NCBI RefSeq assembly: GCF_006715395.1
Contig: NZ_VFNC01000003.1
Span: 496,001-560,000, forward strand
Source: Streptomyces sp. SLBN-31
GTDB lineage: Bacteria > Actinomycetota > Actinomycetes > Streptomycetales > Streptomycetaceae
Reading direction: 5' to 3'
DNA length: 64,000 nucleotides
Made by a program: the position numbers and the translations under genes. Of the stretch, positions 12,110 to 63,281 are shown in pieces. The stretch's first letter is position 1, and each line of letters opens with the position of its first letter. A model generated the notes under the pieces. The model was not told where the DNA came from. It saw nothing but the letters and a program-made list of their open reading frames with translations, and ran no database searches.

Positions 12110-12804
12110 CGACGCCTCCACGGACTGTGGACAACCAGTGCACCGCACGAACCGGTTCACCATGCTGCCATGAAGAACGCGCGGTGGAAGGGCCGTGGAG
12201 CGGCTTGTGATCCCCGGAACGCGCCGGGACGCTCCCCCGCACGAGGGTGATCCGGCGGCCCGGACACCCCTGCCTACCAGGGGGACTGCGACGTGAATGC
12301 GCCCCCGCTGTGCGCCCCGAAAACGCCGTTCGCGCCCTCAAGTGCCATGGTGGGAGCGGTAATCGCCATGTGAACGCGGGGTCGATTTTCAGCCAAATTG
12401 GTGACGCGGGGACAGGTGTGGACACGCTCTGTACATGGTTCGCACACCGTCAACTCCTGCGCGCAGCCCGGGAGACGGAGTCCGCCTCCCGGACCGTTCC
12501 GCCACCCGCGGGGATGGAGGTGGCGGTGTCCCCCAGCCCACTGGATCCAGTACAGCGGGCCGACCCACGCACGGCCCATGGAACCGCTCCCCCGGTGGCC
12601 GGAGAAGAGCGCACGGGCGGGCGCACGGCCACACAGCCGGAGCACGGCGCAACTGCGCGTATCGGACCCGTACTTCAGTACGGACCACAATCCCGCCATC
12701 CGGAACAATGCCCCTTAACGCTTGGGATGCGGCGAACTACGCTGGGTTTACGAATGCCGCGTGGTTATGCCAGCGCGGCAGCCGTCTGTGTCGAGGGGTG
12801 GCGC
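12110..12804. other. long divergent intergenic region
   Basis: Nearly 700 bases lie between the asparagine synthetase-like gene and the sporulation-associated gene. Overlapping frames on both strands show no family features and no conserved start. The region is less GC-rich than its neighbours around 12340-12440 and 12640-12760, which fits promoter DNA. I cannot point to a specific operator or RNA. Confidence 0.35.
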
Positions 12805-20087: not shown

Positions 20088-20104
20088 GTGGGCGTGCTCC
20101 TTTC

Positions 20105-20265
20105 CTTCCTTCTCGCCTACCGGGTTAGCTGACGGGTTCGGAGCAGGAAGGTCTCCTACGCGCGTATACCGGCCGTGGGTCCACGGTGGCATCCGCGCGA
20201 TTCACCCCAGGGTGGTGGTTCCCCGGTTCCCTTGCGGGATTCGGCGCGTGAGCACGGAGCCGCCT
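20105..20265 (-). promoter_or_regulatory. ydaO/yuaA-type c-di-AMP riboswitch
   Basis: Reading the minus strand toward the M23 gene, the conserved ydaO blocks appear in order: CGCCGAATCC, GGGGAACCACC, GGGGTGAATCGCGCGG, a variable hairpin, then CCTGCTCCGAACCCGTCAGC, TAACCCGGTAGGCGAGAAGG. The 3' end lies about 20 bases upstream of the start codon, just before the AAGGAG ribosome-binding site. In Streptomyces this class controls several cell-wall hydrolase genes, normally as a genetic off switch when c-di-AMP is high. Exact ends are approximate. Confidence 0.88.
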
Positions 20266-49932: not shown

Positions 49933-50089
49933 GATCGGCCTCTCGGCGTCCTGTTCACCAAAATTTCCCGGATCCGCGCCCGGTACCTATTGCGCTCGGA
50001 CACGCCAAAGGATTTAGTCGGGCTTCACAATGCTTTGCCGGGCACTGTACAAATAATTTGGCACGTGCCGAATGAAGGGACCGATATTC

Positions 50090-50407
50090 GTGGCGCAGAA
50101 GGTCGTGGTCACTCTCTTTGACGACATCGACGGCTCGGAAGCGGCGGAAACGATCGCCTTCGGACTCGACGGCAAGTCGTACGAGATCGACCTGAATCAA
50201 GCCAATGCCGAGAAACTGCGTAAGGCGCTCGAGCCCTACGTGGAGGCCGGCCGCAAGCGGTCGAAGTCGGGCAAGGCCTACCGGCAGACCGAGGTCGCCC
50301 CCGACCCCGCCGCCGTCCGCGCCTGGGCGCAGGCCAACAAGATGGACGTCCCGGCCCGCGGGCGCATCCCCAAGAAGGTCTACGAGGCGTTCGGCGAGGC
50401 CCAGTAG
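50090..50407 (+). CDS. lsrL: Lsr2-like nucleoid protein (LsrL paralogue)
   Basis: A 105-residue H-NS-like xenogeneic silencer that binds AT-rich DNA. The N-terminal oligomerisation domain reads KVVVTLFDDIDGSEAAETIA, then FGLDGKSYEIDLNQANAEKL. The C-terminal DNA-binding domain has VRAWAQANKMDVPARGRIPK, including the RGR AT-hook-like motif. The GTG at 50090 follows AAGGGA by nine bases. Streptomycetes have two Lsr2 proteins. The position next to purSQL matches the second one in S. coelicolor, from memory. Its promoter region is AT-rich, compatible with autoregulation. Confidence 0.9.
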   Translation: MAQKVVVTLFDDIDGSEAAETIAFGLDGKSYEIDLNQANAEKLRKALEPYVEAGRKRSKSGKAYRQTEVAPDPAAVRAWAQANKMDVPARGRIPKKVYEAFGEAQ

Positions 50408-50543
50408 CGCAGGGACCGGCCCCCGACCGACGGCCGGTCAGCCGCCCCTCGGGAGAACCGACTTGCGCTGCACCCCTCCGGGTCGGCTAGAGTCTGGAGC
50501 ACGCCGAGGGGCAAGGCCGAAAGGCCCACCTCACGGAGTACAT

Positions 50544-50615
50544 GCGGGTGTAGTTCAGTAGCAGAACATCCCCCTTCCAGGGGGAAGGCGCAGTGTGCAA
50601 TTCCTGTCACCCGCT
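50544..50615 (+). tRNA. tRNA-Gly (UCC), with aberrant D-loop and T-arm
   Basis: Acceptor GCGGGTG pairs perfectly with CACCCGC, discriminator U, D-stem GTTC/GAAC, anticodon stem TCCCC/GGGGA with loop CTTCCAG (anticodon UCC). The rest is abnormal. The D-loop AGTAGCA lacks the conserved G18-G19 pair of residues. The T-arm CAGTG-TGCAATT-CCTGT has almost no canonical pairing in the standard register, and the near-universal GTTC is replaced by GTGC. A one-base slip gives a four-pair stem with an eight-base loop. Acceptor and anticodon identity elements for glycyl-tRNA synthetase are retained. See findings. Confidence 0.8.
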
Positions 50616-50696: not shown

Positions 50697-50769
50697 GCGG
50701 ACGTAGCTCAGTTGGTAGAGCGCAACCTTGCCAAGGTTGAGGTCGCGAGTTCGAGCCTCGTCGTCCGCT
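50697..50769 (+). tRNA. tRNA-Gly (GCC), copy 1
   Basis: Acceptor GCGGACG pairs with CGTCCGC, D-arm GCTCAGTTGGTAGAGC with canonical GG, anticodon loop TTGCCAA (GCC), T-arm GCGAGTTCGAGCCTCGT, discriminator U. Identical to the copy at 54504-54576. Confidence 0.96.
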
Positions 50770-54503: not shown

Positions 54504-54576
54504 GCGGACGTAGCTCAGTTGGTAGAGCGCAACCTTGCCAAGGTTGAGGTCGCGAGTTCGAGCCTCGTCGTCCGCT
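54504..54576 (+). tRNA. tRNA-Gly (GCC), copy 2
   Basis: Identical over all 73 bases to copy 1 at 50697-50769, with anticodon GCC. It begins 23 bases after the response-regulator stop. Confidence 0.96.
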
Positions 54577-63134: not shown

Positions 63135-63186
63135 GCCTACGAGGTTATAGGCGCCCACTGACAAGCCGACCCGCTCGGGAACGCAA

Positions 63187-63281
63187 GCGCCCCCCACGCA
63201 CCCGCCAGAGCCGACCTACCCTTGCTGCCTTCCGGCCCTGGGGGAGTTCAGTCAGATAGCGCCGCGTGAGGGGCTGCGCAC
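63187..63281 (-). ncRNA. ffs: signal recognition particle RNA (4.5S type)
   Basis: The minus strand contains the bacterial SRP RNA core: a long helix from GCAGCCCCTCACGCGG to GGGTGCGTGGGGGGCGC, enclosing the conserved CCAGGGCCGGAAGGCAGCAA block with its GGAA tetraloop, which binds Ffh. It is placed just upstream of dnaX in the same direction. Ends are approximate. Confidence 0.92.

Follow-up and report, generated by a model that had tools for sequence, protein, structure and literature searches.

One tRNA-Gly(UCC) of Staphylococcus aureus, whose D and T loops are altered, is described as efficiently charged, as poorly recognised by EF-Tu and as having a part in the pentaglycine bridge (PMC8007984). 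Of the five S. aureus isoacceptors, three are reported to lack strong EF-Tu pairs, having A49-U65 and A51-U63 there instead, and to show UU or CU where G18-G19 would normally stand (PMC4052509; similarly PMC9976931). How wall enzymes obtain aminoacyl-tRNA as against protein synthesis is said to be somewhat unclear in most instances (PMC4052509). Another described case is tRNAOther of Bacillus cereus, a non-translating tRNA-like RNA reported to affect the cell wall and antibiotic resistance; it lies beside a genomic island of one strain (PMC3399842), whereas the RNA analysed here is a glycine tRNA conserved throughout its genus. In Streptomyces coelicolor, the peptide branch is given as a single glycine added by FemX, or by VanK in the case of D-Ala-D-Lac precursors (PMC4790382), and femX is given as SCO3904 (PMC3123327). 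No such tRNA was found for Streptomyces in the titles and abstract openings of the mainly open literature covered.

We analysed a window of 64,000 nucleotides, which is the whole stretch of DNA studied, from the 9.47-Mb genome of Streptomyces sp. SLBN-31. The original prediction had recognised in it a tRNA-Gly(UCC) whose acceptor, D and anticodon stems are perfect and had proposed that this tRNA may be a non-translating donor of wall glycine.

The odd tRNA-Gly(UCC) gene and its surroundings

The sequence and coordinates of the predicted gene proved correct. The gene (50544..50615, + strand; hereafter the odd tRNA) is 72 nt long, against 71 nt for the normal tRNA-Gly(UCC), ends with the discriminator T at 50615, does not encode CCA and has perfect acceptor (7 bp), D (4 bp) and anticodon (5 bp) stems. 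It scores 51.1 bits with the Rfam model RF00005, the gathering score of which is 29, and the eight other tRNAs listed in the window range from 61.7 to 74.1 bits; genome-wide, there are 70 RF00005 matches, two of them with still lower scores (50.8 and 41.0 bits). The ARAGORN run did not report the odd tRNA at 50544-50615.

The anticodon loop CTTCCAG (50574..50580, + strand) contains the UCC anticodon at 50576-50578 and is closed by a Watson-Crick pair, C32-G38, at positions where the normal tRNA-Gly(UCC) has C and A. The D-loop AGTAGCA corresponds to A14-G15-U16-A18-G19-C20-A21 when the gene is aligned with the other tRNA-Gly genes of the genome. By this alignment, which also sets the numbering, the predicted lack of the G18-G19 pair holds for G18, replaced by an A at 50560 (+ strand) that is invariant in the copies examined, but not for G19, which is kept. 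Reading C20 as a C19 that pairs with G56 was rejected: other copies have U at this place (AGTAGTA), and the alignment pairs G19 with C56. A D-loop without GG is found in two of the 70 tRNAs of the genome, the odd tRNA and an 84-nt tRNA at C2:3879939-3880022 (L253), whose D-loop is AATGCAGACA.

The T-arm (50590..50607, + strand) is formed by G49-U65, C50-G64, A51-U63, G52-C62 and G53-C61, with one extra U at 50594, between 52 and 53. Its stem, which had been called poorly paired, has four to five standard pairs besides this extra nucleotide. The T-loop is U54-G55-C56-A57-A58. The GTGC expected in place of GTTC is present and is the sole case among the 70 tRNA genes of the genome (RF00005 matches), 69 of which have GTTCRA. 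In the alignment with the genome's glycine tRNAs, G18 is replaced by A, U55 by G and G51-C63 by A51-U63. The odd tRNA retains G19, C56, R57, A58 and G49-U65, together with G1-C72, C2-G71, U73, C35 and C36, which last five we take to be glycine identity elements.

Bases of the variable loop and T-loop, GCGC-AGU-GUGC at 50588-50598, can also form a hairpin that competes with the T-arm. Calculated folding energies make this alternative (GCRC-AGU-GUGC) more stable than the T-arm in 30 of 31 sequences, the difference being 1.4 to 2.9 kcal/mol, and it is kept as GCAC-AGU-GUGC in the second genus of the family that has the odd tRNA. Its outer pair is broken by an A in 2 of 35 distinct sequences. The program's best fold of the normal tRNA-Gly(UCC) is not a cloverleaf either, so that the energy comparison is a weak test; we tentatively prefer the T-arm.

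Looking for a second, normal tRNA-Gly(UCC), a check that the original prediction had put forward, we located one in the same genome at C2:3269247-3269317. All 101 genomes of the genus that were tested contain the canonical pattern, one of them with a mismatch and the others listed with none. In the same genomes, the canonical and odd tRNAs are alike in acceptor end and anticodon; the canonical one differs in having GG in the D-loop, GTTC, C32 with A38, G51-C63 and a length of 71 nt. Since this normal tRNA-Gly(UCC) is also present, decoding of GGA does not depend on the odd tRNA.

Upstream of the odd tRNA lies an Lsr2-family gene (50072..50407, + strand; PF11774, 97.4 bits; PF23359, 55.5 bits), which we take to be LsrL-like and which serves as a context marker; an Lsr2-family gene is likewise found upstream of the copy in the second genus (genome G503, contig C84). 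Downstream, a normal tRNA-Gly(GCC) (50697..50769, + strand), detected by ARAGORN and Rfam, is the syntenic partner. It begins after a gap of 81 bases, in agreement with the predicted 80 or so, and a GCC-tRNA-like sequence follows the odd tRNA within 500 nt in 155 of 158 genomic contexts. The tRNA-Gly(GCC) genes at 50697-50769 and 54504-54576, 3.8 kb apart, are identical in sequence.

Between the Lsr2-family gene and the odd tRNA, a promoter-like stretch TTGC ... TAGAGT (50463..50493, + strand) is followed by a conserved 5' leader of about 50 nt (CTGGAGCACGCCGAGGGGCAAGGCCGAAAGGCC..., 50494..50543, + strand) with the core CACGCCGAGGGGCAAGGCCGAAAGGCC. For the alignment of this region, 129 of the 158 upstream stretches were anchored on the -10-like motif, so that most of the -10 is set by the anchoring; the letters TTGC are conserved at 98-100%, and 25 of the 29 leader positions from +7 to +35 at 80% or more. 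A scan of the region upstream of the odd tRNA for the sigma-70 consensus found no promoter. In S. coelicolor, DasR is reported to bind upstream of glyS as well as at a tRNA-Gly gene lying upstream of SCO3679 (PMC4398421).

Conservation, covariation and distribution

The odd tRNA was found in 391 of the 392 sampled Streptomyces genomes, by similarity to the present copy and with a best E-value of at most 2.9e-15 in each, and the copies of part of these 391 genomes were read; the CCC isoacceptor of the genome reaches only 1.7e-4. Renewed searching of 76 genomes with weaker matches recovered the odd tRNA in 75, some of which have two or three tandem copies. Arrays of three copies, about 114-119 nt from start to start, were seen at L081, L083, L084, L085, L088, L091, L093 and L132. 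The single genome without the odd tRNA, G157, gave only a weak match of 37.4 bits and contains neither the LsrL-like gene nor the downstream ABC gene, whose best matches reach 56% and 40%, respectively. The joint absence of these three neighbours indicates that the whole block is missing from the assembly, through a gap or a deletion. In a gapped search, the odd-type matches all span 72 nt except that of G375, a genome 55% complete, whose copy has a shorter anticodon stem; we suspect a homopolymer error, and this copy was excluded from the 72-nt counts.

A similarity scan without a GTGC filter gave 173 copies with overlapping loci counted twice, corresponding to 35 distinct sequences in 158 genomic contexts. 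None of these departs from A18, the extra U, GTGC or the UCC anticodon, the scan being ungapped and therefore detecting only copies that have the extra U. All copies scored 64-72 of 72 and all have GTGC; the sole other window scoring at least 50 (52) was a staphylococcal tRNA. Within the T-arm, only positions 49, 57 and 60 vary among distinct sequences. Alignment across Streptomyces had been suggested as a check of the odd positions, and these are invariant in the copies examined. Neither this check nor the search for a normal tRNA-Gly(UCC) thus contradicted the original prediction.

Pairing was analysed in an alignment of 31 distinct sequences, built from copies chosen by GTGC, which is thus invariant there by construction, and skewed toward the genomes most and least similar to the query. 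G1, C2, C35, C36, G71, C72 and U73 are invariant in it. Over the 22 cloverleaf pairs, counting 32-38, 99.4% of cells are paired, the exceptions being pair 27-43, unpaired in 4 of 31 sequences, and two U-G cells. Double changes occur in 8 of the 22 pairs, compared with a mean of 4.0 after shuffling and 1-2 when the pairs are slid. Four of five covariation measures lie above every shuffle; the fifth, which concerns further pair types, lies below (10 against a mean of 13.2, with 500 of 500 shuffles at least as high). Compensation mostly accompanies variation in the acceptor, D and anticodon stems, while the T-stem pairs are nearly invariant and hence carry little covariation information. Pair 3-70 is G-C in 30 sequences and A-U in one; pair 32-38 is C-G in 16 and U-A in 15, with no exception. 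A51-U63 is present in all 31 and G49-U65 in 30, A49-U65 being found only in the second-genus genome G503.

Among 197 genomes of the order, the odd tRNA is present in 181 of 181 Streptomyces and in G503, the one genome of a second genus of the family; there its neighbours are the same, pair 3-70 has changed with compensation and pair 49-65 is A49-U65. The 15 genomes from two other families of the order gave no match of comparable strength, and the weaker match in G392 is a normal tRNA-Gly(UCC) (L126). A DNA search covered 394 genomes of the class, with no more than two top candidates scored in each; the 40 Streptomyces genomes alone gave scores above 80 bits, and elsewhere the scores reached at most 55.4 bits. 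A pattern combining the acceptor, UCC and GTGCRANYC matched all 40 Streptomyces genomes and 1 of the other 354; a reversed control pattern matched 5 of the 394. The match outside the genus, in G735, was rejected as not tRNA-like in appearance. The order and class searches detect tRNAs like the odd one and could miss an analogue with other changes. A mobile origin was considered and rejected, the odd tRNA with its flanks being unmatched in phage and plasmid records.

Comparison with staphylococcal tRNA-Gly(UCC)

The original prediction had stated that staphylococcal tRNA-Gly isoacceptors show similar changes, a parallel that holds against real sequences and extends to A51-U63 and the 32-38 pair. 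The staphylococcal set was obtained with a 24-base T-arm piece, which led to nine stretches, eight from Staphylococcus and one from Mammaliicoccus, containing 28 tRNA-Gly(UCC) genes. All 28 have G55, A51-U63 and C32-G38 and lack GG at 18-19; 13 of them match the search pattern and thus have G55 and A51-U63 by construction, and the other 15 are their neighbours. None of the 28 genes is of the normal type, so these stretches provide no internal contrast.

The odd tRNA and the staphylococcal tRNA-Gly(UCC) have in common the UCC anticodon, G55, A51-U63, the loss of G18 and a Watson-Crick 32-38 pair, as well as the acceptor end G1-C72, C2-G71 and U73. The 32-38 pair as a feature common to both groups is our own observation. 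The staphylococcal tRNAs have an 8-nt D-loop in which G18 and G19 are both replaced, A49-U65 and a 5-bp T-stem without extra U; their CCA is encoded and they lie within a tRNA array. In contrast, the odd tRNA has A18-G19, G49-U65 in the genus and an extra U, lacks an encoded CCA and adjoins an Lsr2-family gene. Since A49-U65 is absent from the genus and the replacement of G18-G19 is only half present, we keep the odd tRNA apart from the staphylococcal group. It is 74% identical to the CCC isoacceptor of its own genome, from which we infer an origin independent of staphylococci; its resemblance to local tRNA-Gly genes would thus point to convergence. By analogy, the odd tRNA may work like the staphylococcal non-proteinogenic tRNA-Gly.

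Possible roles of the odd tRNA

The genome encodes a 384-residue FemAB protein at about C3:686.4-687.6 kb (PF02388, 152.9 bits), whose best solved relative is 6snr, a lipid II:glycine glycyltransferase (E 1e-30). This femX-like gene is unlinked to the odd tRNA, at a distance of about 140 kb, and a second FemAB-family gene is present at C2:2638760-2639806. A search of 20 genomes detected FemAB proteins in every one, among them 11 order-level outgroups without a detected odd tRNA, which shows that Fem-type enzymes do not need it.

We consider that the odd tRNA is probably a dedicated, largely non-translating Gly-tRNA that donates wall glycine through a FemX-type glycyltransferase. It would be transcribed from its own conserved promoter-like site and processed, with CCA, which the gene does not encode, presumably added by an enzyme. 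GlyRS would be expected to charge it, since G1-C72, C2-G71, U73, C35 and C36 are all kept. A51-U63, the extra U of the T-stem, the A18/G55 elbow and the closed 32-38 pair may then weaken EF-Tu delivery and decoding, the effect proposed for A51-U63 on EF-Tu being drawn from published staphylococcal work. The glycylated odd tRNA would be left for the FemX-type glycyltransferase, which may use it for the single glycine branch on peptidoglycan precursors, and GGA would be decoded by the normal tRNA-Gly(UCC).

In favour of the wall-donor role we count the near-universality of the odd tRNA, its invariant odd positions and co-varying stems, the normal UCC isoacceptor, the staphylococcal parallel, the tandem copies and the FemAB protein related to 6snr. 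Against it stand the retention in the genus of G49-U65, a strong EF-Tu pair, and of G19, the FemAB proteins in outgroups without a detected odd tRNA, the unlinked femX-like gene, the predicted energy in favour of the other hairpin and the fifth covariation measure, which lies below the shuffles. Of the original proposal, escape from translation appears well supported by comparison, through the normal UCC isoacceptor, the invariant odd positions and the staphylococcal parallel; the wall part draws on published statements about FemX (PMC4790382) and on what we infer from them. Very likely the odd tRNA acts either as a wall donor, as another non-translational donor or in regulation, these roles being taken together.

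A non-translating Gly-tRNA might instead supply an enzyme other than the housekeeping FemX, such as a VanK-type Fem protein, a GNAT-type transferase or an unknown user of Gly-tRNA. The second FemAB-family gene would suit such a role, which nevertheless seems unlikely to us, the only genus-wide glycine branch known to us being that of the cell wall. Streptomyces pathways that use Gly-tRNA, with DhpK and Orf11, have been reviewed and also speak for it, but they are described for single producer strains (PMC12945691), whereas nearly all genomes of the genus have the odd tRNA. That the odd tRNA could be a working GGA elongator with an unusual elbow, perhaps for special growth conditions, would agree with its perfect anticodon stem, its UCC anticodon and the retention of G49-U65, G19 and C56. 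We find this quite improbable in view of the normal UCC isoacceptor in 101 of 101 genomes, of GTTC in 69 of 70 tRNA genes of the genome, and of the Watson-Crick 32-38 pair and extra T-stem nucleotide, both fixed in the copies examined.

We give little credence to a tRNA-derived regulatory RNA, whether it yields fragments or is recognised by a protein by way of the alternative hairpin and leader. This hairpin is predicted to be the more stable form in 30 of 31 sequences and the leader is conserved, but the hairpin's outer pair is broken in 2 of 35 distinct sequences, and the cloverleaf stems co-vary and the glycine identity positions are fixed, neither of which a mere fragment source would need. 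Finally, the low covariance score and the ARAGORN miss could suggest a decaying pseudogene or a chance tRNA-like sequence. The original prediction had argued against random decay, and the presence of the odd tRNA in 391 of 392 genomes of the genus, the covariation and the synteny contradict such a relic so strongly that we regard it as scarcely credible.

Whether Streptomyces independently evolved a dedicated, non-translating wall glycine tRNA, converging with staphylococci on G55, a broken 18-55 contact, A51-U63 and a closed 32-38 pair, is in our estimate evenly balanced. If this is the case, the convergence would amount to a repeatable sequence rule by which a charged tRNA is withdrawn from translation, and the positions that matter would be revealed by the recurrence of the changes in a second, independent lineage. 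Tractable soil bacteria would become available as a test system, and a fixed trait of a major genus of antibiotic producers would be explained; for tRNA annotators, the implication would be that low-scoring genes of this kind are functional.

Small RNAs elsewhere in the window, all on the - strand, are Scr4115 (12462-12570), a c-di-AMP riboswitch (20099-20256) and a small SRP RNA (63180-63278).
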